Assembly (NCBI GenBank): GCA_022414725.1
Contig: CM039464.1
Coordinates: 20,883,820 to 20,947,819 of the forward strand
Reading direction: 5' to 3'
DNA: 64,000 bases
Source of the DNA: Microglena sp. YARC
Lineage: Eukaryota; Chlorophyta; Chlorophyceae; Chlamydomonadales; Chlamydomonadaceae
The notes beneath the pieces were generated by a model. That model saw nothing but the letters and a program-made list of their open reading frames with translations, was not told where the DNA came from and made no database searches. Shown one piece after another: positions 1-42,481 of the stretch (positions are counted from its first letter, which is position 1; each line of letters opens with the position of its first letter). The position numbers and the translations under genes are program-made.

Positions 1-192
1 GGGGGGGCTACACATGGCAGCTTCCAGCCAGCCCCATGAGCCAGACACTGGGGCAAGCCCAAAGCTTCCAGCTGCATTTGAATGCCTGTCATATCAGCTT
101 TCAGACGTACTAGCTACCTTCAGGTTTGGCTCAAGGACAGGGGAAGGGAGCTGCCTAGAAGCTGCAACATGTAGCCCAAAAAAGAAACAGTG
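1..192. mobile_element. MITE of the CACTGTTTCTTTTT family, left end cut by the window
   Basis: Ends with GGGAGCTGCCTAGAAGCTGC and a terminal AAAAAAGAAACAGTG, the reverse complement of the end CACTGTTTCTTTTT seen in better copies at 9066-9268, 38878-39096 and 42482-42688. It lies just downstream of exon 3 of the Nudix gene. Internal words (AGGTTTGGC, CAGCTGCATTTGAATGCC) recur near 9500. Confidence 0.6.
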
Positions 193-205
193 GGATGCAG
201 CTCAC

Positions 206-3200
206 CTCATTTTCATTAAAGCTAATTTTTCCATCATAGTCGCGCAGCTGGTAGCTCTCGACAAACTCATAATCTTTGATACCTGACATGAGAGAGTGAT
301 ACTGGTATGTATAGATGTATGTATCAGTCTATATTACATTGTACATGGTTGCATAGTCCTCGGCAAAGATGAGTTTCAGCCGTTCACATATCTGTATCCT
401 CATCAGTGGGCTCTCGTCGCAATTAGTAGGTAGCTCTCGACTAACTCATAATCTTTGATACTTGACATGGGAGGCAGCAGGGATTTTTTTTTCAAATCTG
501 AAATTGGTTTTTTTCTAGCTCTGTGGATTTAAGCCTCCTCCAGGGACAGAATTGTACAGCTTTGTACAGCTCTTAATAGCTTTTATAGCTTTTAGGGCCA
601 TTTAGGGGGGGGGGGGGGGACTTTGGTTTTTACATTTGTACAGCGATAATTTCACCAAAACGGGGTCAAAACAAGCAATCTATATACATAGCAGAAAAAT
701 ATCCATGGGAGGCAGTGAACCTCATTGAGAAGGAGGAAGGCCATCGTTTTTCTTTTCAGCTACCAGCTGCAGCTTCTTGACAGCTCCCTGAGCCAGCCAT
801 TGGGCCAAGCCCCAAGATGTCAACAATACAGGAAAGCTGGTTGTGTCAGCTTCAAGGTGCACTAGGTTGCATCAGGTTTGGCTGCCTAGCCTGACAGGGG
901 AGCCGCCTAGAAGCTGCTGCTCGTAGCTGAAAAGAAAACTATGATGACAGCTCATAAGGGGGATGCAGCGAGATCCCTGTTATTATCGATGGCAATCTAA
1001 TATATTTTATTATGAATGGCAATCTAATCCAGGGTACTACATTTTGTCAAATTGGTCAGCGCTTGAAGCACACAAACGTCAAATTGGTCAGCGCTTTCTG
1101 GTGCGATGAGCGCAAAAACTGCGGGCTGCGCCCACAGGGGGTCGAAAAAACTGCGCGAAACGCACAGTGGGGTGCAATCTAATCCCTGTTATTATCAATG
1201 GCAATCTAATCCATGTTACTATGAATGGCAATCTAATCCATGTTACTATGAATGGCAATCTCATCTCTGTTATTATCAATGGCAATCTAATCCATGTTAC
1301 TATGAATGGCAATGTAATTCCTGTTTATGAATGACAATCTAATCCCTGTTATTACGAATGGCAATCTAATCCCTGTTATTATCAATGGCAATCTAGAGTA
1401 GACCTAGGGACCATGTTGGAGCTAGCTGACCTCAATCAAGTGTTTCTTTCAATCAGCTCATCCTAGCAATCTAGAGTAGATCTTGATTGTTTGAGGTTAG
1501 GAAAGTCCCTGAAGCGTCTTCGCCTATCCCTGGACTGCAACATCCATAAAATTGCGCAGGCAGGATAATAAAAATGTACAGAAGCAGGATAATAAAAATA
1601 GACATAGACATAAGGCCCCCATAAGGCAAAATAAAAAGGAGCACCAATTTGTAGGGAACGGCATATTATACGGTGTTGACCAAAGGCGAGTATGATATCA
1701 TATGATATCATACAAATTGCATCATGTGATATCGTATATAAATAGTAACTTAAGCCTTGTCAGGCTGCCGGCATCATATGATATCATATTGCCGTTCCCT
1801 ACCTATTTCTAGGGAAAGGCTAAGTTAGTTAATATTAGTGAATGAATAATATTAGTGAATGTTCATATTAGACCAAATACCCATCTCACCAGAATTTTGA
1901 ATTTATTTGAAAAACTAATATTATTTAGATGCTATAACAGGCACTATAATAATATTAGTTAATATTAGTTTTTCAAACACTAATATTAGTTGCCATTCCG
2001 GCGTTCCGTACCTATTTCTGGCAGATCCAGTTTGCGCATGTGGCAGAGTTGCACGGGAGCTCCTAGGGACTCAGGCAACTCGCTCTTCAGTATCCCCAGC
2101 TCCTCCTGAAGGCCCCTTAAAGCAGCGGCACCAAAGCTCTCTCCAGCTTCCAGGTGTTCTACGTTCACATGCAAAGGGGCAGCAGTTTGACAGTCACTTT
2201 ACATTATGTTACATTACGTTGTCATCAGCAGGCCATTGTTGACCCAAGACAAGCCCGCTCCACAACATCTGGGGGGTCCTCCAACTAATCCTTAAAGTTG
2301 GAAGAGAGGCTTTGGGGCTGCAATGAGTCATTTGTGGGATTGTACAAATATAGGTAGTTTTGCAGACTCCTCAGTGCAGCAGCACCATAGCTGTATCCAG
2401 CTCCCATGTTTTCTGGGGTCACATGCAAAGGGGCAGTAGTTTGGCGTTCACTTTGGAAGAGAGGCTTTTGGGTTGGCCAGTCATTTGTGGGATGGTATAA
2501 ATTAAGGCAGGGACCGGCATATCATATGATGTTGACCTAAGGTGGGCATGATACAATTTGATATCATACAAATTGCATCAGATGATATATAAATGGTACA
2601 TTTAGGCTAGCCAGACTGCTGGCATCATATCTTATTATATAAAGTAGCGCGTAGTAGGTTGTCTGGGGGTTGGCGCGTGCCCGGCGCGTGTTTGGGACTT
2701 TGGTTCCATATCTTGCTGACCTGTCGCTGACGTGGCCATGGGGGTCCTCCCGTCGGAACGACGGGCTCAATGCTAGTGATATCATATGATGACATGATTT
2801 CATGTGATATCACATTGCCGTTCCGTTCCGTTATTGTAGTTTTGTAGACCCCTTAATGCAGCAGCACCACAGCTCTATCCAGCTCCCAGGTGTTCTGGGG
2901 TCACATGCAAAGGGACAGCAGTTTGAAGATCAATTAGGAAGAGAGGCTTTTGGGTAAAGCAGTGATTTGTGGGGTGGTCTAAATATAGGTTGTTTAAATG
3001 TATGTTCTGGGCCCCCAGGCCCATTGAAGGGTTTATTTCCTATGCCCATGCAATTGATGATCCCCCGTGCCCATGTACAAGGGATTCTTACCAGCAACTG
3101 ACAGATCCCATTGCTTTGGCCCGACCTTCTTCTGAGCAGATCTCCGCTGGATCGCCAGGTTGCCCTCCAAGTTGAAAACAAAGCAATACACGGCTCGGTG

Positions 3201-5364: not shown

Positions 5365-8300
5365 CATCCATCCATCCATCCATCCATCCATCCATCCATC
5401 CATCCATCCATCCATCCATCTGTAATGTTTAAATGGTCAAGGGTATTCAGTTTTTATGTGTCAGTGTCTGACAGATTTGTTTTCCCTTATGTATAGCTAT
5501 CGCAACTTTGGGCAAAACGTGTATGGTTTCGGTGGCTACAGAGAGGAGATGGATACATAAACTCTCACATTTCAATCAAACTAAGGCACACTGCTGGGCA
5601 CAATCATAAAAGAATCCCTCTACAGCTCTTCCCCCTTCTCCAGTCCTGGTCTAACCCACAGAAGAAGAAAACAAACGTGGTAGGAGAATCCTGCCAGTCT
5701 GAAATTTATAATAATCCCATGCCCTGTCCGACCAGTGCCCAGGACATCAGTGCTTTTTATTTTTAAGCCCTTCCTATCACGGTTGGCAAGTCCCTTTAGC
5801 CTATTTGGCCTACCCTTGGACTGTAACACACATGCATACATACAAACAAATAAAAAACATAATCCAAATAGCATGCGCTGTCATGTGCATGGATCGCATG
5901 CCAAATTAGATGCCGCTGCTGCTAGACAGGACACACGCATGTGCACTATCTGGCCTACCCCTGGATTGTAACATACATACATACAGTGCCAGCTTGACAT
6001 GAAAAAGCTAGGTAGGGGGACGTTAGCCCCCACTTACCTTAACCCGAAAAACACCCAATCACTACTAAACCTTCGATTCAAAACTCAAACCACTAAACCC
6101 TAAACCCTAAACTCCATAACTTAATTAGGTTGGGTTACCTTCCCCCCACCAAAAAGCTCCTTCATTAAAGAATCCTGCCAGTCTGAAAATATCCCATGCC
6201 TGACCCATTTAAGTGTAAACAACGCGGATGTGCACATTGTAGCTACAGCACTTTCTGAGACCTCCCACCACCTCCCACCACCCACCGCCCCCAAACCTCC
6301 CCCCCCACCACCTCCCACCACCTCCCCCCCCACACACACCCCACCCCACCCCACCCCCCACACACACAAGCACCACACACCACACACACACACTGCCTCA
6401 CTCCCCTGGACAGTGCCCACTTGACCTGCAAGAGCTTTTGCAAGTCATGACCAGTGCTGATAGTCCACTATTGGTCGACCTGTGTGGGAGGTGCCTGAGC
6501 AGCAAGAAGCGCACAGTGGGGCAGCTCCTGCTGAGTGTTGCTGGAGTACATCTGAGAGATGGCACTATCGAGCTCCCGAGCGACAAGGATGAGTTGGTGA
6601 TTTGTGGACAGGATGTCCTGCTTGAAGCAGTCACCATCCGTCGGAAAAGTGGGACCAAGGATGCCAAGGTGAGCTTCCAGGCGATAAGGATGAGTTGGTG
6701 ATATGTGGACAGGATGTCCTCCTGGAGGCTGTCAAAATCCATCGGAACAGCGGGACTAAGGATTCAAAGGTGAGCTTCCAGGCGATAAGGATGAGTTGGT
6801 GAGACCGGTATGTAGACAGGATGTCCTGCTGGAGGCGGTCGCCATCCTGCGTAAAAGCAAGGCCAAGGAGGCAAAGGTGAGCTGCAGACCGATAAGGATG
6901 AGTTGGAAATATGTGGATAGGATGTCCTCCTGGAGGCGTTTACCGTCCGGCAGAAAAGCGGGACCAAGGATGCAAAGGTGAGCCTCTAATCAATAAGGAT
7001 GAGTTGGTGATATGTGGATAGGATGTTCTACTGGAGGCTGTAAAAATCCATCGTAAAAGCAGGACCAGGATGCATAAGTGATGCGTTGCAACCAATAGCA
7101 CCACACACCTCTTTGCATATATCAGTGAATGAAACTATCACTGCACATACCAGTGAATAAAACTATCACTGCACATACCAGTGAATGAAACTATCACTGC
7201 ACATACCAGTGAATGAAACTATCACTGCACATACCAGTGAATGAAACTATCACTGCACATACCAGTGAATGAAACTATCACTGCAGCACAAACTCAGGGC
7301 CCCCATCGGTAAAACGATTGTTTGGGGTTCAGCTCATCAATACTTTTTCTTGTTAGCCTTTCCTGTCACGGTTGGGCAAGTCCCTTTAGCCTATTTGGCC
7401 CACCCCTGGTAACATACATACATGCACCAGAACAGCATCACACACTCCCCAGCACCCAAAACAACCAACCGCGCAACATGTATATTGTTACAGTCCAGGG
7501 AACCAAATGTGCTAAAGGGACTTGTCCAACCATGACAGGAGGGGCTATAACGAAAAGGCACTGATGAACAGAGCCTCAAATAATCGTTTTACTGACGGGG
7601 GCCCTGAGTTCGTACTCCAGTGAAAATTTAAAATGTGTGTGTACGGTATGGGGGGGGGGGGGGGGGGGGCTTGGAATTGGAAGATGGTGATTAGCCCAGA
7701 GTTGGGCTGAAAACCATGTAATAATCCATTCAACTCTAAAGTTCGTGCTACAGTGAAAAGACATGTAGCTCTGCACCTACAACAGCTGCATCACACACTC
7801 CTCAGCATACAGCGCAACAAGCAGCGCCACACAAATATATCAGTACATGCAGGATCGCCCTGAGTTCGTCCTGCATTGATAATTTACAGCACCTGCCCCG
7901 CCACTCTTTTGTCAGGCACCGGAAAATCCACAATCACCGCGGGTATCTTAGCCGAACTTGCTGAAAATCTCTCTGACAAGTTCTATGCAGCGTCGCAAGC
8001 GACGCAAAAAATTGGCGGAGAGTGTTCGCGACAGAGCGACAGGTGGCAACAGAAATGAGTTAGTTACAAGACTATTGGCTGGCGTGTCAGGCTTCGTCTC
8101 AGGGGGGCGGTCGCACAAACGGACAACGGGGTGACCCTGGGGGCTCCCACCCCCCAGAAGGGGGGGCTCCGCCAAATATATCAGTGCATGCAAGATCGCA
8201 CAGCAACAAACAGATGATCAACTCTTACTGTACCACGTATCAGAATGAACTCGGCACTTTCACTCCACATTCCACTTTCCACTTTAACTCCACTTTCACT

Positions 8301-10989
8301 CCACTTTCCACTTTCCACTTTCCACTTTCACTCCACTTTCCACTTTCCACTTTCACTCCACTTCCCACTTTCCACTTTAAGTCCACTTTCCACTTTCACT
8401 CCACTTTCCACTTCCCACTTTCCACTTTCCACTCTCCACTATCACTCCACTTTTCGAGGTGGAAGCGGCTGAACAAATCTGCTTTCATGTCACTATTAGA
8501 TATTGCAGGTTCTGCTGCCCCAGCTTCTGGCTACCATGCTATTCAACAAACTGCAAAGATGTGGAGATCCAAGGAGTACAACCAGGGTACTTCCAAGCGC
8601 GCGCTTATTCACACTGGCGCGCTGCCTTTTTGAGCCCCACTGCGCGTTTCGCGCAGGTTTTTGCAACCCCCTGTGGGCGCGGCAAGCAATTTTTGCGCTT
8701 TGGCACTACAAATCGCAGTTAATTTGTTTTCAAGTGCGCTAAAGCGCTGGCCAATTCGGCCAATAGAAGTACCCTGAGTACAAGCATGAACTAGACATCA
8801 AATTGGTGGAAGGGTACCCCCCTCAGTCTTGGGATATTAATAGGTACTGCTGTGCCAGTTGCTGGCTACCATGCTAGTCAACACACCGCAAAGATTTCCA
8901 AGGAGTACATGCATGAGCTAGGCATCGAATAGGTGGAGGGGTTTCCCCCTCAGTCTTGGGATATTAATAGGTACTGCTGTGCCAGCTACTGGATACCAGC
9001 AGCCACCATACCAAGGCCATTTACAGCAGACCTTGACAAAAGTAAACATTTGATTTCACCATATGCACTGTTTCTTTTTCGGGTGATGAGTATCAGCTTC
9101 TAGGCAGCTCCCTTTACCTATCCTTGGGCCAAATCTGAAGCTAGCTAGTGGGTATGTAAGCTGTCATGGCAGGCATTCCAATGCAGCTGCAAGCTTTGAG
9201 TTTGAGCCGTTGGCTGGCTGATGGGGCGGAAGGGAAGCTGCCATAGGTAGCTCAAAAAAGAGACAGTGACCACATGCACACCTTTTTCCGGCTCAAGAAG
9301 GGGATCTTCTGGGAGCGGAGAGGATTTGGTGTCTGTCGAAGTTGGGCTCCTGGTGGGTTATTTTACATAAGCATCCAACAGATCATCCATTTTGCCAGAT
9401 TTCATAGGATAAATTCAGATTTTCTGTTTATTTTGTGGGCTTTGCATGGCAGCTTCCCGCCAGCTCCGTTAGCCAGCCACTGTGCCAATCCCACAGTTTT
9501 CAGCTGCATTTGAATGCCTTTTATGTCAGCTTTCAGGCTTCAGGTTTGGCCCTAGGACAGGGAAAGGGAGCTGCCTAGAAGCTGCTGCGTGTAGCCCCCC
9601 AAAAGTAAGTGGTCGGTTGAAACAACGAAGCGTGCAGTCCCGCGAGCTCAGGCTGGTTGGTTCCAGGGTACTTCCATTGACCAAATTGGCCAGCGCTTTA
9701 GCGCACTTGAAAAAATAAAAACTGCGCTTTGTAGTGCAAAAAGCGCAAAAAATGCTTGCTGCGCCCACAGGGGGTTGCAAAAAACTGCGCGAAACACGCA
9801 GTGAGGCTCAAAAAGTCAGCGCGCCAGCGCGCAAAAGTGCGCGCTTGGAAGCACCCTGGTTGGTTCAATATAATTCATCAGCCTGACAAGTCTGTGATTT
9901 GAGCCCTTTCCAGGTTCCCAAATTTCAGACCTGCCGCCTTGGAATTGGTTGAGACCTCCCCTCCACCGTGGCGCAGTGATCCAAGCTCAGGCACAGTAGC
10001 GGTGTGCGAAACAAAAAACCTGTAGTAAGCATTCCCCAGTGCAAGCGAACGGGAAGGTTCCTTCAAACTCACGCCCCGTGGCAAGACGTATGAATTCTCA
10101 TTGTGCAGTCCGATTGTTGCACACTGTGACTGTAATGGGGCGAGACGGTCGCTCAAGGCCAGTCGGGCGCAAGGGGATACTTGCATGAGAGTCACCGCCC
10201 CATTCGATTCCAATTGATCCCAATCAAAGCCCTCAAATTTATTCTGCATCCATGATATCTTCAGAGCTCGTGGTTGGCCCCTGTGCAAGCAAGCGGCTGG
10301 CCCCCTCAACCTCACGCCTCAAAATAAGGTGTACCATTTATTTGTTATGTCTTGAGAGCCTGGCCTTGGGCACAAAGCCTGTTAGCTTCGCCTAGCCTGG
10401 TTGCCTTGTGGCCTGTTAGCTTTGCCTAGGCTGGTAGCCTGGTAGCTCACATTACGTTTTTTGCGGTGCCCCCCCTTATGGGAGGCGGTGGCCCCCAGGG
10501 TCACCGCATTGTCCGTTTGTTCGACCACAACAAACAAGAAACAAGAAACGCTGGCCCTAACTGTCCCGGAAACCCTGGCTTTGGTCTGCTGCCCTCGATT
10601 CCGTTGCCACCTGTCACTCCGATAGCCAACACTCTCCGCCAATTTACCACATTGCTTGCGATGCGCCTAGGACTTGTCATCAGTTGCTTGCATGTATACA
10701 ATCCCTACAAACACACCTATACACTAACCGCCCCTGTCCCCATGGCTCCATGCATGCTCACAGGTTATGGCCCTGGAAGTAGCGCGCAGAGGACTCACTT
10801 CAGTTCGCAACCTGGTCAGCGTAGAGGGAGTGAAAGGGGCAAGCTTTGTTGGATGCAATGTGCACGGACTGCTGGAAGTAGTGCGAGGTGGAATCCTGCA
10901 TCTGGCGGAGTGCCTGGTGGTTGGCCCCACGCGTGTAAGCCGAACGGACTCGCGCTTGTACGCTTCAGGTATGCAGTGTGTGTGTTTGT

Positions 10990-11041
<52 letters not shown>

Positions 11042-11208
11042 CCCTGCCGTAGGTTCTGGAAGTGACACTCACACACACACACACCTGGTGGTTGGCCCCA
11101 CTCGTGTGAGCCGAACAGACTCGTGCTTGTATGCTTCAGGTATGCAGTGTGTGAGTGAGTGTGTGTGTGTGTGTGTGTGGTGTGTGTATGCAGTGTGTGT
11201 GTGCTTGT

Positions 11209-11241
<33 letters not shown>

Positions 11242-17520: not shown

Positions 17521-18873
17521 ATCGAGGGTATAGTTAGACGTCGCGTTGCGTCTGCGACGGAGGACGCAGCGTCATGAACAACCCTGCCCACGGTTATACC
17601 CTCCAAACCCTCCCCTAAACACGCCCCTCCTCTTGATCCCGAATTAACGATGCCTCAATGCGTTATACGAATTTGCGACTCTTCCAAGGGAGCAGTTCCT
17701 TGACACAATCTGCATGTCTTGTCTCCCGCATCCCAGCCTCCTGGCGATCTCCTCCTCTCTACTTGTCAAAGCGTGCCATGCGATAATCCAAACTGACCAG
17801 CCGACCACCCATCCACCCCGATCCACCCAGCCCAATTATGTTCATTTCGAGACTTCGAACTTGCACTGGTCGGACCATGGCATCCTGGAGTTTCTATGTG
17901 CCTCGAGCTCTAGGCAAATCTCCCATTCGCAGTTGTCGAGGCGACACTGTCCGACCATCGAGGCAACACTCTATAACCATCAATTATCGAGGCGACAAAC
18001 TGCTTACATCTAGGCAATATCTCCCGCAACCCCAACTGAGCCCCGAAGGCGAAAAGGCCTGCATACAAGGCCTGGAAATGCTGCACATCCAGGCTAACAA
18101 AGCATAGATCCGACCATCCTGCCCGACCGCACTTGACAGAACATCAGATACCTGACTAGCTAACTCGTGTGACGTAGCTCCCCCCCCCTTCCCGGACCCT
18201 TTCCTCCACCTTAAATCAGACGGCTTGAGGAAGGCGAGAACCACCGAACCACCGAACCACCGACCGACCACCTGGTGAGTAGAGAGGCTTTCTGTCGTGA
18301 GACAAACTAATGACCTCGTCAGCCCATCAACGCAATCCCCGTATGAGGATGGGCGATTGGACAGACCTCTTTCTCCTCTAGATAGGTTTGTATATGTGTT
18401 CGAGATTGGACAGGTGTGGGTGTGTAAGTGTGTGTGGGTGTTTGTTTTGTACGTTGGTGCGTGTAATTGTTAGCGAGTGTGTGTGTGTGTAAGTGTGAGT
18501 GCAAGTGTTAGTATGTGTGTACGTGTAAGTGTGTATGCATGTAAGTGTGCGTGGGGGTGCAAGTGTGCTTGTAGGTCTGTGTGTAAGTTTGTGTGCCTGT
18601 GTAAATGGGTGCGTGGAAGTGTGTGTGTGTGTAAGTGATCATCACAACAAAGGCGTCATATACCATACTGCCTAACCGCTCATCCTACCTCTTCGCCCGT
18701 CTCACTTTGTAGGATGTATTTCTTCTACCCCCAATCCGCCAAGAAAGTCCTTCCAGCATAACGGTGGCCAGCAAATCCTTGTTCTTAGCGTCACCAAGTT
18801 GTCAACAAGGCCTAGCAAGAGATTGTAAGCTGAGAAGGTGACTGACCTAGCTGTCTCAATACCATCTGATCAA
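17521..18873. other. Upstream region of the glycosyltransferase gene
   Basis: No gene recognised. 18410-18640 is an imperfect GTGTAAGTGTGTGTG microsatellite. 18240-18270 has CCGAACCACCGAACCACC. A promoter for the gene at 18874 must lie here or in an unseen upstream intron, but no element stands out. Confidence 0.4.
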
Positions 18874-26008: not shown

Positions 26009-28635
26009 ATGAGCTTCGGAATGGGCGACACTCAGATGGCTGGATACATGACTGGGTAAGGTGTTGGGCTTCGTGGAACATGCAGCTCTCCTGCGTTGTC
26101 GCCAACTAACGCAATTCAACTCACCTTGCGCTAACGCATAGCTCTGCAACTCAAGGAGGAGATGCCAAGGTAGGTCGGACCTCGAATTGGCACCCATTCC
26201 ATGCAATGCGTTCAATAGAGCTCTCCGCTGCGCCCATGGCTTAAGCTTTCGCATAACACGAATGCTCAGGCAATTTAGCTGGCGTTCCTGCGATAAATTG
26301 CTTAAGTGATGTGAGAGTTGCTTTCCCGTGCGGGGAGCTCCTGATGCTCATCGATGAAAAGATCTTCACTGTGCCCCGTTCCCTCGTGCCGCAGAGATCC
26401 AACACCTCGCAGACCTTGCGAGCTGTCACTTTCCGCCAGATAATTAAGGACAACATGGACGTCGACAACGACGAGTTCAAAGTGGACCACATCGACGTCA
26501 GCGCGGTAAGGCCCTGGCACGATCCATTGTCTCAGTGCTTGGATTGAATTGAATTGTTACATGGTTTTTCAGCCAACTCTAAGCTGCTCGCCAATCCCCC
26601 CCATGCGATGCCCACGGGAACCAGGGACCGTACTAAGCGGATTATACACTTTAAACATTTGTCCAGGTCTCAGTGCTTCTGTCCACCTGCCTCCGCCACA
26701 GGGGGCGAATGCAACTTTGTTTGGACAAAATTCACCTACCTAACGACTCTAACCCAACCTTTTTTGTACAAATACTTTTGCTGCCTTTTCTACAGCCTTA
26801 GAATCTGCCCACCTTAGCCACAAATATGAAAGACAGAGCCACCATGTGCACGATGCTCCCACTTCCCCCTGGACACTGACAAGCTACCGGCACAATTGGA
26901 GTCCAATAAGGCACCAGGAAACATGTAACCATCATTATCATTGTCAAAGCCATGACAGTCACTCCACTCTCTTCCGCCACTCCACTCCTGCATGCGTGCA
27001 TCCACCCCCACCATCCCAACCTGTATAAATCCACCCACCCACCTACCCACCTGCTCACCTACCCACCCATCCACCCCCGAATCCTGTTGACTATCTGTGG
27101 GTTGGGACAAGGATGTTCAAATGTCTCGAGGAAGATCAGGAGGGGGGAGAGGCAAGGAATGGAAGGGAAGTGCAACAGAGAGAAGGGGAGAGGAGAGGGA
27201 GGCAAAGTGGAGAGGAGATGGAAGGGCAGAGAAGAGGAAAGAAGAGAGGAGAGGGAAGGGGAGAGAAGAGGGGAGGTATGGAGAAAGCGGTCCACTTATC
27301 TGCAGCTTATCCTATACCATACCATTCCGACGGCAATATGATATCATATAATGCCAGTAGTCTGACTAGGCTAAAGTCACCGCTTAAAAATAACATATTA
27401 TGATGCTATTGTATCATATATATGATATATACTTGCCTTTGGTCAACATCATATGATATGCCGGTCCCTAAGTATAACCCATACCATATACATACACTAC
27501 TTTACTTCTGCAGGTCACCAGTATATCACCCCATACCCCCCACCACCCACATGCACCACCCACTTGTGCAGGTCACCAGGATATCACACCTCATACCCCC
27601 CACCACCCACATGCACCACCCACTTGTGCAGGTCACCAGGATATCACACCTCATACCCCCCACCACCCACATGCACCACCCACTTGTGCAGGTCACCAGG
27701 ATATCACACCTCATACCCCCCACCACCCACATGCACCACCCACTTGTGCAGGTCACCAGTATATCACACCTCATACCCCCACCACCCACATGCACCACCC
27801 ACTTGTGCAGGTCACCAGTATATCACACCTCATACCCCCCACCCCCCACATGCACCACCCACTTGTGCAGGTCACCAGTATATCACACCTCATACCCCAC
27901 CACCCACATGCACCACCCACTTGTGCAGGTCACCAGTATATCACACCTCATACCCCCCACCACCCACATGCACCACCCACTTGTGCAGGTCACCAGTATA
28001 TCACACCTCATACCCCCACCACCACATGCACCACCCCACTTGTGCAGGTCACCAGTATATCACACCTCATACCCCCCACCACCCACATGCACCACCCACT
28101 TGTGCAGGTCACCAGTATATCACACCTCATACCCCCCACCACCCACATGCACCACCCACTTGTGCAGGTCACCAGTATATTACACATCATACCCCCCACC
28201 ACCCACATGCACCACCCACTTGTGCAGGTCACCTGTGTAGGAAGGATAGTCAGCATCCAGGAGAAGAGCAACCGCACTTTGTACATGGTTGATGACGGCA
28301 CCGGAAAGATTGAGCTCAGCCAGTGGAGCAACGCTAATGATGAGGAGGTGAGTTTGTGACGATTTATACATCGTAGCAGCTGTAGATATAGGCAGAGAGA
28401 GGGAGAGAGAGAGAGAGACGGTGGACCAAATATTGAGCTGAGCCAGTGGAGCAATAGCACAGAGGAGGATGTGAGGTTGTGACGATAAAGATATTGTGGC
28501 AGCCGTAGATATAGGCAGAGAGAGAGAAAGAGAGAGACGGTGGACCATAAGATTGAGCTGAGTCAGTGAGGCAACAGCACCAATGAGGAGGTGAGTTTGT
28601 GATGGTTTATGTATCGTGGCAGCTGAGTTATAGGC

Positions 28636-28685
<50 letters not shown>

Positions 28686-31600
28686 GCCTAGAAGCTGCTA
28701 CTCATGGCTGAAAATAAAAATAACTATGTAATCTGTACAAGGGGACCCATCTCCTGGGGTGACTCTTAAACACTCAAATGAACAAAAAACATCCTAAACA
28801 ACAAACATCCAAAACAACAAACATCCTAAACAACAAACATCATAAACAACAAACATCATAAACAACAAACATCATATACAACAAACATCATAAACAACAA
28901 ACATCAAAAATAGAAAACACCCTAAATAGAAAACATGAAAGAAAAAACATGAAACAATCGAAAAGAAAAAACATGAAACAATCGTAAAGAAAAAACATGA
29001 AACAATCGCAAAGAAAAAACATGATTAAAAAAGCGGGAAAACCTCCAGCAGCAAACAAATGAACATCTAATATCCTGAACGGCAAAATGAAGAAAAAGCC
29101 AATCGCAACATATCACAACATAACACAACAAATCGCGAGATGGTTGACAAACGATTGACCCACGTAATGTTTAAACTTTGTACAGTCTTTTGATAGCCCG
29201 CTGCTTCACGGGACCTGCCCACGTTTCTGATCACCACAACCAAGCCAATCGCAACAACCGTGTACTCCTTCTCACTTTTGAGCGCAGAAGCCTGACGTCA
29301 GAGTGGGTTCCTACATCCGAGCATACGGAAACCTCAAATCCGTTGATTGTAAGGACGGCAGCAGAAAGACATTCATCAACGCATACAATGTCAAGCCTGT
29401 GCATGACCACAACGAGGTGTGTATGAAGAGAAGTTAACACATACTCTTCCCTACTTTTGGTGCTTGGCCCCAGTGCCAGCAAACAGGCTGGTCCCTTCAA
29501 CCTCATGCCTCGTAATAAGGCGTACTATTTATTTATTTATTTATTACTTCCCTACCTTAAAGACCCTCATGCTTTCATGTTATAAAATAGTATGGTTGGC
29601 TGGCTGTGCTGTTTAGGGTTTAGGGCTTAGTCTTGGCTCGTTAGTGATTTGCTGGGTTTATGCAACGAATCTTCTCTCAGTTTGAAATTAGTTGACTTCA
29701 GTTTGAAATTAGTTGACTTGTATTTGTGTTTGAAATCATTTGAATTGTGTTTGAAATTAGTTGACTTGTGTTTGTTTTTCAGTTTGATATTAGTTGACTT
29801 GTGTTTGAAATTAGTTTACTTGTCCTTGTGTTTGAGTTTGAAATTAGTTGACTTGTACTTGTGTTTGAGTTGGAAATCAGTTTACTTGTACTTGTGTTTG
29901 AGTTGGAAATTAGTTTACTTGTGTTTGAGTTTGAGTTTGAAATCAGTTGACTTGTACTTGTGTTTGAGTTGGAAATTAGTTGACTTGTTCAAGTTGGGAT
30001 GAGACCCGCTGCCCGATGACAGCGAGTCTTCTCAAATATGACCACAAATATGACACTACCGTGTTATCACATGATATTATGCCATCACACGATATCATGT
30101 GATGCCGGAAGTCTGACTAGGCTAAAGACACGATTTGTACACAAGATCATATGATGCAATTTGTATAATTTCATGTATACAACACACTCGTCTCTGGTCA
30201 ACATCATATGATATGCAGGTCCCTACAAAAATGACGCCATTATGTTGCTGCCAACAGCTTCAGGAGCCCCTTATAAACTTCCTTCTTTCAAATAAGAGAC
30301 CCCACTAAGTAAATACCCCCACCCCCACCCCACCACCCCCCTCCCCAAACACACACCACATCCACCACACAAATAAGTGTTACCTTACGTTTCACCTTCC
30401 GAATACTTTGCAGGTGATGTATCACTTCTACCAGTGCATCGCCCAGCACCTGCAGCTCACCAAGGGTTCCCCACCAAGCGTTCCTAGTGCCTCCCCAGCG
30501 GTAAGCTCCTCTGTTACTTTTTGGGGCTGAGTGGTAGGGTCTCTTTTTGAATAGGGTGTTACATGATGCCTGTTCTGAAGGGGCGTGTGTGTGGGAGGGG
30601 GGGGGGGGGGGGGGGGGCTGAGTGGTAGGGTCTGTTGTTGAATAGCGTGTTGCATGATACCTGTGCCGAGGTGTGTGGGGTGGGGGTGGGGGGGGAGCTG
30701 AGTGGTAGGGTCTGTTGACGAATAGCATGATGCCCAGCCGCACTGCCTCCCCAATGGTAAGCTCCACTGTTTCTTTTTGGGGCTACGCATTGCTGCTTCT
30801 AGGCAGCTCCCTTTCCCTGCCCTTGGGCTAGACCTGAAGCTAGCTTGTGCGTTTAAAAGCTGATATAGTGATATGACATGCATGCCACTGCCTTTTGAAG
30901 ATATGTCCAGGCCAAGCATGTCCCTTGAAAGTAGTGAACTACAGATTGTGACTGACTCCCAGAAGTCCCTTGAAAGTAGTGTAGTGTAGTTCATATTGTA
31001 ACTGACTCATAACTCCCAGAAGTCCCTTGAAAGTAGTTTGGTACATATTGTAACTGACTCATAACTCCCAGAAGTCCCTTGAACGTAGTGTAGTACATAT
31101 TGTGACTGACTCATAACTCCCAGAAGTCCCTTGAAAGTAGTGTAGTACATATTGTGACTGACTCATAACTCCCAGAAGTCTCTTGAACGTAGTGTAGTAC
31201 ATATTGTGACTGACTCATAACTCCTAAGTATGTGTTCACTCTATGTTCCTTGAAAGAAGGATTAAAAGTAGTATTGGAAGTAGTAGAATATAGGGAACGG
31301 CAACTAATATAAGTGTCTGAATAACTAATATTAGCATAGTGTCACAATAAGATTAGTTTTTAAAATAAATCAGAATCAACTGACTCACTCACTCACTCAC
31401 CCAACTGGCTCACTTCACTGACTCACTCACTCAACTGCACCACTTCTGTCCCTGTAGCCTGTTAAGAGGGAAGCTACCGCCGGGGCTCCTGCTGCACCTG
31501 CCATGAACTCTGGCGGAAACATCAATGAGGACATGATGGCCATCTACAATGACCCGGAAATCATCGCCAGCCAACCCAGTGGAGTTCACATTGATGAGGT

Positions 31601-34360
31601 GCGATATCTATATATTTATATAATGGAATATATTGATATTTATAAACTCTGGCAGAAACATGAATGAGGTTATGATGTCTATCTACAATGACCCGGACAT
31701 CATTGCCAGCCAGCCCACTGGAGCTCACAGTGATGAGGTGCGCTCTCCTCCTCCCCTCCTCCCTCACCTCCTACCCCCCCTCCCCCCCCCCCATCCTCAC
31801 CCCCCCTCCCTCACCCCCATCTCCTCTCCCTCCTCACTCACCTCCTCCCCGCCCTCCCCCTCCCCCTCTCCACCCCTCCTCACCCCCCACCCCAACCACC
31901 CCCCCGGCTTTACTGCATCTGCCTGTTGGGATGGTAAACATTGTCAAGAGCTCTATTGAATCTGTTAGGCTTCCAGCACCTTTTGAGCCTAGTAGGATAT
32001 TAGGACAGTTCAGACATCATCATTATTTTTAGGGAGGTCAACCACTTGACCATACAATGCTGACAACAATAAGTTCCGGGTGGTTAAGGTAAATAAATAG
32101 TACGGCTCATTACAATGGTTGGTTTTCAGGGGGTCAGCTGCTTTGCTTGCGCTGGGGCTGACCAATGATGGGGGAGTGCCGCATTATATTTACGAAAATC
32201 GTACTGTCATCTCCCTCAGTGACCGCCCTCAGCCAGCCAGCCCCCCAGGAGTCAAACTAGCTGCCCACTGCCTTCTGATTCCGTTGACTACGTGTGTATC
32301 GTTTTTTAGAAAGTGGAGTATTGAGCTCAATTGCGCTGAGAACCATCTGTCCAATCATTCTTACTTGCAAGTGCACCACATGTTGTACTTAAACCTCAAT
32401 TGCGCTGAGAACAATCTGTCCAACCATTCTTACTTGCAGGTGTATAACATGTTGTACTTCAACCTCAATTGCACTGAGAACAATCTGTCCGACCATTCTT
32501 ACTTGCAGGTGTATAACATGCTGTACTTCAACCTCAATTGCGCTGAGAACAATCTGTCCAACCATTCTCACTTGCAGGTATATAACATGTTGTACTTCAA
32601 CCTCAATTGCACTGAGAACAATCTGTCCGACCATTCTTACTTGCAGGTGTATAACATGTTGTACTTCAACCTCAATTGCACTGAGAACAATCTGTCCGAC
32701 CATTCTTACTTGCAGGTGTATAACATGTTGTACTTCAACCTCAATTGCGCTGAGAACAATCTGTCCAACCATTCTCACTTGCAGGTATATAACATGTTGT
32801 ACTTCAACCTCAATTGCAATGAGAACAATCTGTCCAACCATTCTTACTTGCAGGTGTATAACATGTTGTACTTCAACCTCAATTGCGCCGAGAACAATCT
32901 TTCCGACCATTCTTACTTGCAGGTGTACAACATGTTGAAAAAGCAGGGATCGAAGTACACTACTCAGCAAATCAGGGAGGTAGGTTCCTTGCTGCGTGGC
33001 GTTCAGAGTGGGTGTATGGAGCTGTCGAAAGCGTGTCCCGGTATGTGGGCAACTTATGTTCCAAAGCTGCAATGGTATAGCAATCTGATATGTTTAGGGA
33101 CCGGCATTTTGTTTGGTGTTGACCAAAGGCGAGTATGATATCATACAAATTGCATCATATGATATTGTATACATATGGTAACTCTGTCCCAGTCAGACTG
33201 CCGGCATCATATAATAATATATTGCCTTTCCTAGATATGTGTCTCTGCTTGTTGCCCACAACCCGATTGATGATTGATTGAATTTTTTAGACCCCCTCTG
33301 GGCGCAGAGCGCAGATTTCCGTTTTCAGTTGAGTCAAATGCGCAACCCAAAGGGAAGCAGTTGCTTCATAAGTGCAAAATGTAGTACCGTGACCACTACA
33401 GGGATTTTTATTTTCGCTATGTATAGCGATCGCTAGTTTTGACCCCGTTTTAGCGAAATTATCGCTATAAAAAAAGTAAATACAAAGGTTTTGTTTTTTA
33501 ACCCTCAATGGCCCTAAAAAGCTACAGAAAGCACTAAAAGCTGTCCCTGGAGGAGTCCTAGAACCATAAAGCGAGAAGAAACCCACTTTCGGATTTGAAA
33601 ACAAAATCACTGGACCACCACCTCACGTCACCCTTCCACCTGGGTGGATGGATAGAACGATACATGGCTCCAGCCTTTAAGGCTGCACACCGTCGTATAC
33701 AGTAACAATATGCAAGGCACCCACCCTGCCATCTGAAATTTGCCTCTGCTTGTTTCCCATGTCCCCCACCTCGCGACGTCCTCCCACCTACCCTGCGCTT
33801 CTTGAACATAGATACCTGGCTCTAGCATGCAAGGCTGCTCTCCATCCTCTGCAGTAACAACAACACGCAAATCTGATGTGTGGCTCTGCTTGTTCGCCAC
33901 AACCCCCCTCACAACACCATCCCACACACCCTGCCATCTGATGTGTGGCTCTGCTTGTTGGCCACAACCCCCCTCACAACACCATCCCACCCACTCCGCC
34001 ATCTGATGTGTGGCTCTGCTTGTTGGCCACGACAACCACCTCACAACACCATCCCACCCACCCTGCCATCTGATGTGTGGCTCTGCTTGTTGGCCACGAC
34101 AACCACCTCACAACACCATCCCACCCACTCCGCCATCTGATGTGTGGCTCTGCTTGTTGGCCACGACCCCCCTCACAACACCATCCCACCCACCCTGCCA
34201 TCTGAAATGTGCCTCCGCTTGTTGACCACAACAACCACCTCACAACACCCTCCACCCCTCCACCTTGCGCTTTTATCAGGCCGCCGAGATCCTTTGTAAC
34301 GAAGGTATTCTGTTCTCCAGCACAGACGACTTCACTTATAAGAGCGCCAGCGCAGAATAA
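26009..34360 (+). CDS. RPA2: Replication protein A 32-kDa subunit (RPA32), nine exons, complete
   Basis: Exons 26009-26055, 26142-26169, 26395-26505, 28228-28347, 29288-29416, 30414-30500, 31458-31598, 32923-32979 and 34280-34360; all GT-AG, all phases agree, 801 nt, 266 aa, the normal RPA2 length. RPA2 is the middle subunit of the ssDNA-binding trimer of replication and repair in the nucleus. A short Gly-rich head (FGMGDTQMAGYMTGSATQGG), which in other RPA2 proteins is phosphorylated, leads to the OB fold (about 30-165): LRAVTFRQIIKDNMDVDNDE, VTCVGRIVSIQEKSNRTLYM, VDDGTGKIELSQW, GSYIRAYGNLKS, FINAYNVKPVHDHNE. The C-terminal winged helix (about 195-266), a docking site for repair proteins, is complete: IYNDPEIIASQPSGVHIDE, VYNMLKKQGSKYTTQQIRE, AAEILCNEGILFSSTDDFTY. 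The introns total about 7.5 kb and carry copies of five of the gene's own splice junctions. The CDS looks intact and functional. Confidence 0.95.
27120..27290 (+). repeat. Purine-rich GGAGA tract in intron 3
   Basis: AGGGGAGAGGAGAGGGAGGC-type sequence over 170 bp, polypurine on the sense strand. Confidence 0.85.
27313..27475. mobile_element. TAGGG-family palindromic MITE in RPA2 intron 3
   Basis: GGCAATATGATATCATATAA, AGTCTGACTAGGCTAAAGTC, TTTGGTCAACATCATATG, TATGCCGGTCCCTA. Left end decayed. It ends about 40 bp before the acceptor array. Confidence 0.75.
27500..28227 (+). repeat. Array of twelve exon 4 acceptor copies
   Basis: Unit of 58-60 bp: ACTTGTGCAG then GTCACCAGTATATCACACCT, CATACCCCCCACCACCCA, CATGCACCACCC. 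The base after each CAG is at 27514, 27572, 27632, 27692, 27752, 27811, 27871, 27929, 27989, 28048, 28108 and 28168; the real exon starts at 28228 with the same CAG, GTCACC. The three nearest copies are in frame with exon 4 and open (VTSISHLIPPTTHMHHPLVQ per unit). Confidence 0.95.
28380..28685 (+). repeat. Two copies of exon 4 end plus donor, with (GA)n
   Basis: ATTGAGCTGAGCCAGTGGAG, CAATAGCACAGAGGAGGAT then GTGAGG (donor 28471), and a second ending CACCAATGAGGAG then GTGAGTTTGTGA (donor 28591), match the real end at 28348. Spacing is 123 and 120 bp. Each is followed by CAGCNGTAGATATAGGCAG and a GAGA tract. The second copy has TGA in the exon frame. Confidence 0.9.
28790..29030 (+). repeat. 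AACAACAAACATC short tandem repeats, intron 4
   Basis: About nine units of AACAACAAACATCNTA, then GAAAAAACATGAAACAATCG units of about 28 bp. Confidence 0.85.
29680..29995 (+). repeat. GTTTGAAATTAGTTGACTTG minisatellite, intron 5
   Basis: About ten degenerate 20-35-bp units of TTTGAAATTAGTTGACTTGT with an interspersed ACTTGTGTTTGAG. Confidence 0.9.
30055..30224. mobile_element. TAGGG-family palindromic MITE, intron 5
   Basis: ATGATATTATGCCATCACAC, GATGCCGGAAGTCTGACTAG, CTGGTCAACATCATATGATA, TGCAGGTCCCTA. Flanks CAAATATG and CAAAAATG agree in 7 of 8. Confidence 0.7.
30501..30775 (+). repeat. Copy of exon 6 end plus donor; 3x GGCTGAGTGGTAGGG
   Basis: CTGCCTCCCCAATG then GTAAGCTCCACTG (donor 30757) repeats the real TGCCTCCCCAGCG then GTAAGCTCCTCTG (donor 30501), 256 bp downstream. 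Between them GCTGAGTGGTAGGGTCTNTT occurs three times, with about 21 G at 30597-30617. Confidence 0.85.
30760..30900. mobile_element. CACTGTTTC-family MITE, partial
   Basis: CACTGTTTCTTTTTGGGGCT then GCTTCTAGGCAGCTCCC and CTTGGGCTAGACCTGAAGCT. The right end is missing. Confidence 0.65.
30920..31240 (+). repeat. 53-bp minisatellite, intron 6
   Basis: Six units with AGTACATATTGTGACTGACT, CATAACTCCCAGAAGTCC and CTTGAAAGTAGTGT. Confidence 0.9.
31599..31740 (+). repeat. Copy of exon 7 end plus donor
   Basis: About 100 bp repeating exon 7: AAACTCTGGCAGAAACATGA to GCTCACAGTGATGAG then GTGCGC (donor 31738; the real donor is 31599 GTGCGA). It still translates as MMSIYNDPDIIASQPTGAHS, a close copy of the winged-helix start, and carries a new CTGGCAG acceptor-like site in place of CTGGCGG. 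Confidence 0.9.
31745..31905 (+). repeat. C/T-rich low-complexity tract, intron 7
   Basis: Polypyrimidine, mainly CCCCCTCC and CACCTCC, with C runs up to 10. Confidence 0.85.
32330..32922 (+). repeat. Exact 69-bp array of exon 8 acceptor copies, in frame
   Basis: Seven intact acceptors TACTTGCAG then GTGTATAACATGTTG with following base at 32440, 32509, 32578, 32647, 32716, 32785 and 32854 (69 bp each), plus a damaged one at 32371; the real exon starts at 32923 with TTGCAG, GTGTACAACATGTTGAAA. Every unit is open in the exon frame (VYNMLYFNLNCAENNLSNHS, YLQ), so any of the acceptors would insert a multiple of 23 residues. Confidence 0.96.
33093..33234. mobile_element. TAGGG-family palindromic MITE, intron 8
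   Basis: TAGGGACCGGCATTTTG to TATTGCCTTTCCTA; flanks GATATGTT and GATATGTG agree in 7 of 8. Confidence 0.8.
33399..33612. mobile_element. hAT-like MITE, CAGGGATTTTT family, intron 8
   Basis: 214 bp from CAGGGATTTTTATTTTCGC to GAAAACAAAATCACTG; flanks GACCACTA (33391-33398) and GACCACCA (33613-33620) agree in 7 of 8. Internal CGATCGCTAGTTTTGACCCC. Confidence 0.82.
33860..34255 (+). repeat. 65-bp minisatellite, intron 8
   Basis: About six units of ATCTGATGTGTGGCTCTGCT, TGTTGGCCACAACC, CCCTCACAACACCATCCCAC. Unlike the other RPA2 arrays it does not contain the exon 9 acceptor. Confidence 0.92.
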
Positions 34361-39370: not shown

Positions 39371-39377
39371 TGTCTCA

Positions 39378-39633: not shown

Positions 39634-39846
39634 CTGTCTCATGCTGCCTGACCTCCTGAATGAGGGCAGTCCTGATGCTGCAGCTTGGCCAGCGCATTAA
39701 TATGCTGGCCATGTGCTGCTGATGTGTTGTGCATGAGCCTGTAACGTTGCTGCTGTCACTGTGGGTGTCGCAGCTGACGCAACAGTGTGTTACGCTGCTG
39801 TTGCTGCCATATTGTGTCACGCTACCATGCTCACCCCCTGCCCCTC

Positions 39847-42141
39847 TTAAAGGTTTAGGGCTCTCATCGACCACTGGATGCTTTCAGCTTGGGCTGTTGT
39901 AAACGCTGCCCACTGCTGCCTCACCTCCTGAATGAGGTCAGTCGTGAATGCGGGAGCGTGGTGCTGCAGCTTAGCAAGTGCATCGAGAGTGTACACAAGC
40001 TCTCTCGGCTCAAAGTGGGAGAGGCCAGGCTTAGCCCCATTTAGCATGACAGATATGAATCTGGCATCGTAGTGCTCCAGCACAGCAAGCGCCCACAGGG
40101 TGTTGGCCACCTCCTCAGGGCAGTACATCCCAGCGTCCTCCTCACCCTCAGACAGAAGCGCGGCGGTGAGATCTGCATCCTTGTAGCCCAGCCTCCCCAT
40201 CGCCCACACCAACTCTTGGGGGTTGTACGCCCAAAGTCGAGGTCTTGCTTGCGCAAGTATCTCACCCATGAATGCATCATCCCTGTGCCCCAGTGTTGCT
40301 AGTGACCAAGCCAGTAGCGACAACTCGTCCGGCTTCATAGATCGCATCAAAGGTGTCGTGGCCTTGCATAGGTCAGAGATGAACTCATGCTCCTTGGACT
40401 TCATGCTAGCTAGGGCCCACAAGGTGGCCACCAGACCCTCGGGTGCAAATTCCCTGATTCGTGGCTTGGCTACAGCCATGATCTCATTCACCAGGCTGGC
40501 ACTGTTGCTAGGCCCAATCTTAGCAATCGCCCACAGCACGTTGGCCATGTCGTGGGTGTTGAAGCTAGCTAGCTTGCAGCTTGACTCCAGCATGAGCCCT
40601 TGGATGAATGAGCCCCCAGGTACTTCAAGTTTGGCAATGGCCCAGGCAGAGGTTGCTAGATTCTTGGCAGTGAAGAGGGGCAGCAGATGCTGTGCCCTGC
40701 TGAGTAGGGCGGACACAATCTGGTCCCCCTGATACTTCTTCGTTGTCCTCCTCTTTGCCAACGCCCACAGGGTGTTGGCAACGTCCTGCGAGTTGAAGCT
40801 GTGTATGTGCGCCTTGGCGTGAAGGAGAACGGAAGACACAAAGGGATCATCCTTGTGCCCCAGCTTCACCATGGCCCACAGGATGTTGGAGTAGCCTTGG
40901 GGGCTGAAGTTGGAGAGTTGGGGTTTGCAGGCTGAGATAAAGGAAGATACGCATGCCGGATCACGGTGCTCTATCTTGGCGAGGCCCCACAGCATGTTGG
41001 ACAGACCCTGGGGAGTGAACGCACCCAGGCGGGGTCGTGCTTGAGACAGCAGGGCTACTACAAACTTGTGATCTTTGTGCCTCAGGACAGCTAGGGCCCA
41101 CATGCAGTTTGACAGGTCCTGGGGCAGCATGGAACCTAGCAGGGGGGTTGCACTGGCAATGATAGCTTGCACTGTGCTACTGTCCTCATGGCCTAATTTG
41201 GCAAGAGCCCACAGGCAGGTGCTCAACTCTCCCTGTGAGAGGCCTGCCAATTTAGGACGTGCGGCTTCACACCATGGTCCAAGCAAGCTGGTGCTACGGC
41301 TCCCCAACGTGGCTGCGGCCCAAATGAGGTTCTTGAGGTCGAGGGGCTTGTACCACTTCAGGTGAGGCACTACAGCGGTTGACACGGCTGACACCAAAGC
41401 GTCATGCTGACTGTTCAGCTTGGCTAGGGCTAACATCAAAATGACCAGCTCTCGGGGTTTAAACGTGGAAGTGCCACGTGATTGCATCTCTTCGACAATG
41501 GCATGAGCGAACTTGGTGCTATCATCATGCTGCAGGACAGCTAGGGCATGCAGGGAGTTAACCAGCCCTTGGGAGCACATGTCCGGCAGCTGGGGCTGAG
41601 CATGGGAGATGAGAGCAGAAAGGAACGCTGAATCTCTGTACTCCATCTTCCCCAACGCCAACAGCGTGTTGCTTAGGCCTAAGGGCTGGAACTCTGCCAG
41701 CTTCTGGCTAGCTTCCCTCAGAAGGGGGGCCACAAACAGGCTGTCGCTGTAATCAAGTGTTGCCAGTGCCCACAAGCTGTTTGAGAGCTCTTGAGATGAG
41801 AACTCATTGAGCTTCACCAGCGCGGCAGCTATAAGCTTGGGCAGTAGTTTGTTGGAGGGGGCATGCCCTACCTTGGCGAGCCCCCACAAGGTATTGGAGA
41901 TCCCACGCGGAGCCATCTGTTCCACGGACTGCGCTGCTACCTTGCTCAAGCACTCCTCCAACAGGCGTACTGACAAGTCGCGGTTGGACGGCTGCAGCTT
42001 TCCCAGCTTGTTGATTGCTGTGGCCCCGTTGATTGCGTTGAATGAGTGCTGGTACATGCGGCTCAGTTCACTCAGCTCTGCGACGGTATCGCATGCTAGC
42101 AGCATGCGATTCAGCTCGTAGTTACGGATGGGCTTCGCCAA
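39847..42141 (-). CDS. OPR-like helical-repeat protein (Tbc2-type), large last exon
   Basis: 764 codons from a clear acceptor (TTATCTACGCAG, then TTGGCGAAGCCC at 42141) to TAA at 39847-39849; the start codon lies in unseen upstream exon(s). Residues from about 60 on form some 18 degenerate 36-38-residue repeats with the pattern L..F.PQ.LSN.LWALAKL.H.D..F (LSNTLLALGKMEY, LSTCLWALAKLGH, LSNMLWGLAKIEH, VANTLWALAKRRT, MANVLWAIAKIGP, VANTLWALAVLEH). Such arrays are known from octotricopeptide and related proteins of green algae, which bind specific chloroplast or mitochondrial transcripts and promote their stability or translation. No RAP domain follows the repeats. Location in chloroplast or mitochondrion is inference because the targeting peptide would be on the missing exon. 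The exon has no frame break. Confidence 0.85.
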   Translation of the reverse strand: MAKPIRNYELNRMLLACDTVAELSELSRMYQHSFNAINGATAINKLGKLQPSNRDLSVRLLEECLSKVAAQSVEQMAPRGISNTLWGLAKVGHAPSNKLLPKLIAAALVKLNEFSSQELSNSLWALATLDYSDSLFVAPLLREASQKLAEFQPLGLSNTLLALGKMEYRDSAFLSALISHAQPQLPDMCSQGLVNSLHALAVLQHDDSTKFAHAIVEEMQSRGTSTFKPRELVILMLALAKLNSQHDALVSAVSTAVVPHLKWYKPLDLKNLIWAAATLGSRSTSLLGPWCEAARPKLAGLSQGELSTCLWALAKLGHEDSSTVQAIIASATPLLGSMLPQDLSNCMWALAVLRHKDHKFVVALLSQARPRLGAFTPQGLSNMLWGLAKIEHRDPACVSSFISACKPQLSNFSPQGYSNILWAMVKLGHKDDPFVSSVLLHAKAHIHSFNSQDVANTLWALAKRRTTKKYQGDQIVSALLSRAQHLLPLFTAKNLATSAWAIAKLEVPGGSFIQGLMLESSCKLASFNTHDMANVLWAIAKIGPSNSASLVNEIMAVAKPRIREFAPEGLVATLWALASMKSKEHEFISDLCKATTPLMRSMKPDELSLLAWSLATLGHRDDAFMGEILAQARPRLWAYNPQELVWAMGRLGYKDADLTAALLSEGEEDAGMYCPEEVANTLWALAVLEHYDARFISVMLNGAKPGLSHFEPRELVYTLDALAKLQHHAPAFTTDLIQEVRQQWAAFTTAQAESIQWSMRALNL

Positions 42142-42481
42142 CTGCGTAGATAAGAACAAATGGAGTTGGTGGGGTGAACTCTAAACCCTCAACCCTGCCA
42201 AACCCTAAACCCTGGATGGGTTTTGCCAACATGCGTAAATAAAAAAAGAGCAGGTGGCAAGCGAGGAGTTGATGATGTGAACCTTAAACCCTGGATGGGT
42301 TTCGCCAACTGCATAAATAAGGACATGCGAGGAGTTGGTGAGGTGAACCCTAAACCTTGGATGGGTTTCGCCAACTGCATAAATAAGGACATGCGAGGAG
42401 TTGGTGAGGTGAACCCTAAACTTTGGATGGGTTTCACCAACTGTGTAATAAGGACAAGCGAGGACTTGGTGAGGTGGCAGG
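42142..42481 (-). repeat. 66-bp array of OPR-gene acceptor copies
   Basis: Minus-strand TTATTTATGCAG then TTGGCGAAACCCATCC repeats the real acceptor at 42141. Copies at 42308, 42374 and 42440 keep the AG and are spaced exactly 66 bp; one near 42229 has lost it (GCATG). GTTTAGGGTTCACCTCACCA, ACTCCTCGCATGTCC fills the units. The copies are upstream of the exon, offset 2 modulo 3 from its frame. Confidence 0.9.

Follow-up and report, generated by a model that had tools for sequence, protein, structure and literature searches.

Background

Minisatellite-like tandem repeats lying across 5' or 3' exon-intron boundaries have been described in amphioxus, where they are called mirages (PMC3087553). 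They occur in Adh3 and in the globin genes BflGb6 and BflGb9 (PMC3087553), to which TnC and PGBD5 were added (PMC3902484). According to the accessible parts of the two reports, the units measure 10-72, 108 or 150-160 bp, many but not all keep the AG or GT, splicing is reportedly undisturbed, and the number of units varies between haplotypes (PMC3087553, PMC3902484). Here we describe repeats of this kind in the green alga Microglena sp. YARC, first seen in a stretch of 64,000 nucleotides, referred to below as the window (GenBank assembly GCA_022414725.1, 568 Mb in 2390 contigs; contig CM039464.1, G000:C3:20883820-20947819 in our numbering). An initial annotation listed eleven junctions in Nudix, F-box, RPA2 and OPR-like genes of the window at which exon edge, splice dinucleotide and adjacent intron are copied into the intron, and it stated that no such system was known; the amphioxus mirages show that statement to be wrong. 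The feature is real and strong, affects 15 of the 16 genes sampled, and is mostly explained by random tandem duplication together with tolerance of the harmless cases.

Intron gain by tandem or internal duplication is reportedly to be attributed to Rogers, to Gao and Lynch, and to Hellsten et al. In the accessible part of one account, tandem genomic or internal gene duplication is a source of introns when the duplicated segments carry splice signals (PMC3443670). Tandem dual-specific splice sites are known from human UBC and VCX3A, where the splice signals are repeated in an array and a spliceable repeat is thought to be less harmful, as far as the available text goes (PMC10809524).

Duplicated junctions in the sampled genes

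Beyond the window, families were chosen by gene family and without regard to repeats, namely dynein heavy chains (PF12774) and CCT chaperonins (PF00118). After spliced alignment the final sample consisted of 67 introns in 16 genes, ie 39 dynein, 20 CCT and 8 RPA2 introns. Fourteen dynein loci were matched and 13 regions used, the locus on contig C6 being left out; five of the regions were the source of the reference sequences, were aligned as single exons and gave no introns, and the remaining eight gave the 39. Two dynein introns next to a one-base exon were skipped. For CCT, nine regions were taken from 44 of 64 matches and seven yielded introns; seven introns were excluded for gaps in the model and others because their exons scored weakly, as was a pseudo-intron of 62 nt, and 20 were kept. 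The dynein donor at C1:42396001 is off by about 40 nt, as an in-frame stop reveals, and was retained in the counts. Junction copies were detected as blastn self-hits (E<=1e-3) spanning the junction by at least 8 nt. The identities and dinucleotide counts of the copied sites, the position of the junction within the unit, unit length modulo 3, the comparison with intergenic DNA and the count at 95% identity or more were obtained on a previous set of 69 introns that overlaps the final 67.

Copies cover 35 of the 67 donors and 35 of the 67 acceptors, so that 70 of 134 junctions are duplicated (gene-bootstrap 95% range 43-61%), and at least one copy is present in 50 of the 67 introns and in 15 of the 16 genes. 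When RPA2, which came with the original finding, is excluded, 65 of 118 junctions are duplicated. The pattern is common in the genes sampled and extends past the window. That all copies are intronic, as the initial annotation states, agrees with what tolerance would lead one to expect; our junction counts looked for intronic copies alone. Collapsing the repeats takes away 52% of the 65,921 intron bases. Junction-spanning families account for 31,500 of these bases and other families for 8,770, so the introns have grown largely at their ends, as had been proposed. Copies of very high identity are scarce, with four junctions left at 95% identity or more.

In two dyneins the arrays can be followed in the table of profile matches, ie before splicing. 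At C1:61043188 a match to model positions 1-110 is followed by seven matches within positions 63-108, spaced by about 166 bp, and C1:29822771 is likewise trailed by four repeat matches. The two loci are paralogues and carry separate arrays of apparently one exon edge (model about 57-109), suggesting recurrent hits.

The RPA2 model has nine exons in frame and codes for 266 amino acids. Residues 6-266 match the RPA32 chain 2pi2 (E 2.7e-19), which we take to be from human RPA, and a spliced aligner given the RPA2 protein recovers identical introns. The gene and its repeated junctions are placed in the window as follows.

26009..34360, + strand: RPA2 (RPA32) gene, 9 exons
26009-26055, 26142-26169, 26395-26505, 28228-28347, 29288-29416, + strand: RPA2 exons 1-5
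30414-30500, 31458-31598, 32923-32979, 34280-34360, + strand: RPA2 exons 6-9
27504..28233, + strand: acceptor 4 array, 60-bp unit x 12.3, reaching 6-12 nt into exon 4
28305..28660, + strand: donor 4 array, 123-bp unit x 2.9, with 43 nt of the exon 4 edge repeated
30488..30786, + strand: donor 6, true edge near 30488-30527 and distant copy near 30744-30786, read from the sequence
31503..31745, + strand: donor 7, one copy of about 96 nt of the exon 7 edge and about 5 nt of intron, offset about 142 bp, positions read from the sequence
32326..32937, + strand: acceptor 8 array, 69-bp unit x 8.9, with 15 nt of exon 8

Donor 6 gave a single spanning match, with 13 nt of exon. The eleven junctions listed at the outset carry copies as described, as self-matches confirm; the donor 7 copy, with about 5 nt of intron, falls short of the 8-nt spanning rule.

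The 69-bp array at acceptor 8 consists, in the window, of seven units of the main type and one divergent unit. Its reading frame is open through all of them, and gene callers can therefore mistake the array for coding sequence. Five full units are included in P0001, a predicted protein in EukProt whose best stretch is identical to RPA2 at 201 of 202 residues. Because the start of P0001 reads, by its sequence, from RPA2 intron 2, we take it for a gene-caller product. That it has fewer units than the window would fit a turnover of units or else an assembly in which the array is collapsed. In reading five decoy units as protein it stands as a warning for annotation.

Protein contiguity in one dynein piece and in RPA2 supports the outer site as the true one. 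The dynein piece at C1:61041001 has five of seven donors and six of seven acceptors duplicated (11 of 14 junctions). Spliced at the outer sites it has zero stops and matches the solved axonemal dynein 8glv_Me, presumably of the Chlamydomonas reinhardtii axoneme, with E=0 and 1046.7 bits. No inserted copy is found at the exon joins in this alignment, and the gaps are confined to the first exon. Similarly, when RPA2 is aligned to 2pi2, an insert of 23 residues is absent at acceptor 8, which is duplicated.

Decay, edges and orientation of the copies

GT is retained in 70 of 86 donor copies and AG in 74 of 92 acceptor copies, bearing out the initial impression that most copies keep the dinucleotide; it is lost in 16 and 18 copies, respectively. 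Copies agree with the true site at 0.87/0.85 for GT and 0.89/0.91 for AG; the figure is 0.89 for the exon side of the copy and 0.77-0.81 for its intron side. The dinucleotides thus match the exon side and decay at the same pace as the exon bases copied with them.

Where in the unit the junction falls shows no departure from uniformity (Kolmogorov-Smirnov p = 0.93 for donors and 0.11 for acceptors), and the edges of the duplications thus lie apart from the splice sites. Copying by reverse splicing or by lariat insertion would be expected to put the edges at those sites. The smallest offsets of the junction-spanning repeats range from 59 to 648 bp, 53 of 68 lying in 100-225 bp, with a peak at 150-175 bp (17 of 68) that is close to nucleosome spacing. 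In the accessible part of the amphioxus report, the globin units of 150-160 bp also lie near this peak (PMC3087553).

Frame selection on the units was considered and rejected, the distribution of unit length modulo 3 being flat (23/21/21 in classes 0/1/2). Inverted copying was likewise rejected, as 0 of 67 introns have an inverted repeat across a junction and one exon-edge probe matched its own intron on the minus strand. On the plus strand 64 of the 134 probes match their own intron. Elsewhere, two matches lie in a different intron of the gene concerned and 56 in introns that belong to other genes; the latter may be copies made in paralogous genes. Among all 2211 pairs of introns, 27 join different genes and share sequence at E<=1e-10.

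Among collapsed sites, 20.2% are duplicated in introns versus 3.7% in the window's 28.8 kb of intergenic DNA, counted in 900-base chunks, a comparison that favours array-rich introns since introns of less than 900 bases yield no chunk. Tandem Repeats Finder (TRF) reported 23 arrays in 22.4 kb of hand-set gene spans of the window versus 17 in the other 34.8 kb. In this small sample the intron excess may reflect gene-linked duplication or faster turnover of intergenic transposons.

Frequency expected from random placement

The initial annotation asked how often repeats placed at random would overlap junctions, and this was determined for the 67 introns. A null that places duplications within introns alone was rejected as the wrong one because duplications may also start in exons. 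In the null adopted, a duplication of unit p is allowed at every position where the mRNA stays the same, ie within the intron or across either junction; if the collapsed intron has the length I, the probability of straddling is 1-(I-p+1)/(I+p-1). Families touching an exon but not a junction (six in the first set) are omitted. As collapsed introns average about 470 bp and units about 150 bp, approximately every second tolerated duplication is bound to lie across a junction.

With low-complexity repeats counted, 64 of 108 families are junction-spanning at 70% identity or more, versus 58.7 expected (p=0.13), and 18 of 44 at 90% or more, versus 17.5 (p=0.50). In a strict-consensus subset of 62 introns, treated in the same way, the counts at the three identity levels are 59/101 versus 53.6, 55/97 versus 47.3 and 16/40 versus 15.5. 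For TRF arrays the figure is 27/115 versus 21.1 (p=0.08). The outcome depends on how low-complexity repeats are handled, because including them brings in arrays from the intron interior and makes the collapsed intron shorter. Observed odds ratios across treatments are 1.22-2.19, 1.42-2.62 and 1.05-1.86 at 70%, 80% and 90% or more, and a mixed treatment of low complexity gives 1.63, 1.71 and 1.13 in the same order.

These values were compared with a forward model in which duplications fall uniformly and those preserving the mRNA are kept, with substitutions, deletions, insertions, synonymous drift of exons and similar detection. The model is built on simple random sequence, with all exons of 150 nt and with rates set by hand, and no run matches all features of the data. 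Ten parameter sets gave odds ratios of 1.5-2.0, 1.2-1.4 and 0.6-1.2 at the three levels. Part of the apparent junction excess arises because copies anchored in conserved exons remain recognisable longer, as was seen in the simulated genes. At 90% or more, the simulated 95% ranges for junction counts lie within 8-29 of 134 and include the observed 18-19.

A number of results weigh against uniform placement as a sufficient account. At the level of sites, about 52% of junctions are duplicated versus 17% of sites inside collapsed introns. With low-complexity repeats counted, 60 of 104 families span a junction at 80% or more (50.9 expected, p=0.025), and when they are masked every level shows an excess: 65/94 versus 47.5 at 70% or more (p<0.0001), 60/86 versus 40.3 at 80% or more (p<0.0001) and 18/35 versus 12.7 at 90% or more (p=0.03). 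Units of 100-200 bp give odds ratios of 1.7-4.0 in nine of nine treatments. The simulations also fall short: at 80% or more their 95% ranges, within 23-59 of 134 in six runs, lie below the observed 62-64; at 70% or more the observed 70-71 junctions are reached by two of six runs, one of which has far too long introns (median 2575); and in one of six runs the 95% range of the odds ratio at 90% or more (0.38-0.95) lies below the lowest observed value of 1.05. In view of these results, a residual preference for junctions of up to about two-fold is compatible with the data. The raw contrast of 52% with 17% was nevertheless rejected as a sign of strong targeting, as it shrinks when unit length, detectability and masked low-complexity arrays are allowed for.

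Other genes of the window

RPA2 alone was modelled with complete exons. The exons of the Nudix and F-box-like genes were read from translations, and the OPR/FAST-like gene is represented by its acceptor side alone, searched with the junction set 6 nt upstream of the AG. Copies at the named junctions are 71-95% identical (blastn self-matches, E<=1e-3), above chance. Pfam matches in the window's genes are RPA_C, NUDIX, Beta_helix and FAST_1; there is no F-box domain in Pfam at E<=0.01 in the gene initially called F-box, which is instead a right-handed beta-helix protein.

250..473, - strand: Nudix acceptor 3, exon start 282, true edge 294-250, one copy 473-429, 93% identical
2107..2926, - strand: Nudix acceptor 2, exon start 2158, true edge 2190-2107, copies 2454-2376 and 2926-2843 (87% and 82%)
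6570..7081, + strand: F-box-like/beta-helix donor 3 array, unit about 101 bp, four copies past the true edge, first intron base 6669
10913..11954, + strand: F-box-like/beta-helix donor 4, 8 matches, a single long copy followed by an 85-bp array, first intron base 10969
12169..12503, + strand: F-box-like/beta-helix acceptor 5, true edge 12446-12503, single copy 12169-12226, 95% identical
42126..42476, - strand: OPR/FAST-like acceptor, 3 matches, true edge at 42186-42126 and upstream of it an array of 66-bp units as far as 42476

Elsewhere in the window, a 449-residue open frame at 18838-20187 (+ strand) has no Pfam match at E<=0.01. A composite minisatellite with nested periods of 16, 50, 66, 116 and 182 bp lies at 43070-43800, outside the modelled genes. 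A Copia-like retrotransposon occupies 47574-52555 (- strand), with the reverse transcriptase domain RVT_2 (Pfam); the direct repeats on either side of it, near 46.85-47.25 and near 53.52-53.92 kb, look like long terminal repeats by eye.

Discussion

The arrays are probably mirage-type minisatellites, produced by random local tandem duplications along genes of which the harmless cases survive. Such duplications, in direct orientation, with units mostly of 100-225 bp and later expanding and contracting, would fall at random. Those within an exon would alter the protein and be removed, and those within an intron would be neutral. One astride a donor or acceptor would be neutral provided that the outer, original site is used, as protein contiguity suggests it is in vivo, and would leave in the intron a decoy made of exon edge and splice site. 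With a unit about the size of an exon and about one third of the collapsed intron, about half of the tolerated duplications would lie astride a junction. The decoys would then decay neutrally, and slippage or unequal exchange may drive the turnover of units. In the sample the copies are dense and directly oriented, their GT and AG decay at the exon rate, their edges are independent of the splice site, and their frequency is near that of uniform placement. Tolerance had initially been offered as part of the explanation, and it does play a part.

The principal competitor is a duplication process that itself prefers exon-intron boundaries, through breaks linked to transcription or splicing, R-loops, or slippage of nucleosome or Okazaki size at exon edges. 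We think this rather unlikely, although the masked odds ratios (1.9-2.6), those of the 100-200 bp units, the offset peak at 150-175 bp and the 20.2% versus 3.7% of collapsed sites duplicated in introns and intergenic DNA all point that way. However, if low-complexity repeats enter the count and are collapsed, we obtain odds ratios of 1.05-1.42, which apart from one run at 90% or more lie inside the 95% ranges of the simulations or below them; the junction may fall anywhere within the unit; and the intergenic figure comes from 28.8 kb of one window and from introns of at least 900 bases, and may reflect transposon turnover. The narrower suggestion of the initial annotation, a mechanism favouring AG/GT junctions, is unsupported, given observed odds ratios of 1.05-2.6 against neutral simulated ones of 0.6-2.0 and edges that ignore the splice site. 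In its boldest form, which is possible but which we would not favour, the process would be tied to transcribed genes, would make units of about 150-175 bp (near nucleosome or Okazaki size) and would have a true 1.5- to 2-fold preference for exon edges, introns growing chiefly from their ends and the spliceosome routinely choosing among near-perfect decoys.

Other origins are far less probable than either random duplication or a boundary preference. Redundant splice sites might have been selected as a protection of splicing, and the retention of GT in 70/86 and AG in 74/92 copies could be read in that sense, but the dinucleotides are conserved no better than the copied exon sequence and are missing from 16/86 and 18/92 copies; this proposal, also made initially, finds no support and is improbable. 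Mobile introns of the introner type, or an element with splice sites that inserted repeatedly, would be a natural thought, introners being a known source of new introns in the accessible part of the literature on them (PMC9860276). Yet 64 of 134 exon-edge probes find a copy inside the intron that they adjoin, two matches lie in other introns of the same gene, shared sequence between genes is seen in 27 of 2211 intron pairs, and the 56 cross-gene matches may be paralogue copies; such an origin is very improbable indeed. We give equally little credence to an artefact of assembly. Long tandem arrays are prone to mis-assembly, and P0001 has five 69-bp units versus the window's seven and one divergent; but most copies are less than 95% identical (four junctions are left at 95% or more), 15 of 16 sampled genes are affected, and P0001, a protein predicted elsewhere, contains the RPA2 array.

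If about half of the alga's splice sites carry decoys, they form a natural experiment on how the spliceosome chooses among near-identical sites, and also on the lengthening of introns and on exon edges as possible seeds of new exons or introns. In the literature searched, outside which most subscription papers lie, no report of junction arrays in a green alga was found by title. As far as that literature goes, the occurrence in this lineage, the density of the arrays and the quantitative test of their placement are new, and the kind of repeat is one already named.

Among known systems, the differences from two are plain. Intron gain by duplication turns an exonic segment into a new intron, whereas in the alga an existing intron gains decoys and grows. 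In UBC and VCX3A, according to the available text, the array is coding and its units are variably spliced, whereas the algal arrays are intronic. The likeness to the amphioxus mirages is much closer: the tandem repeats lie across the boundary, at 70 of 134 junctions and at the named junctions of the window; both 5' and 3' boundaries are hit (35 of the 67 donors and as many of the 67 acceptors); and GT or AG is kept in 70/86 and 74/92 copies. Unit lengths overlap the 10-160 bp of amphioxus, although many algal ones are longer (offsets 59-648 bp). For amphioxus, variation in length between haplotypes and normal splicing are reported in the accessible text; for the alga, P0001 has fewer units of the RPA2 array than the window, and what bears on splicing is protein contiguity. 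Mirages are, in the same sources, described for individual amphioxus genes, and in the alga they mark about half of the junctions sampled.

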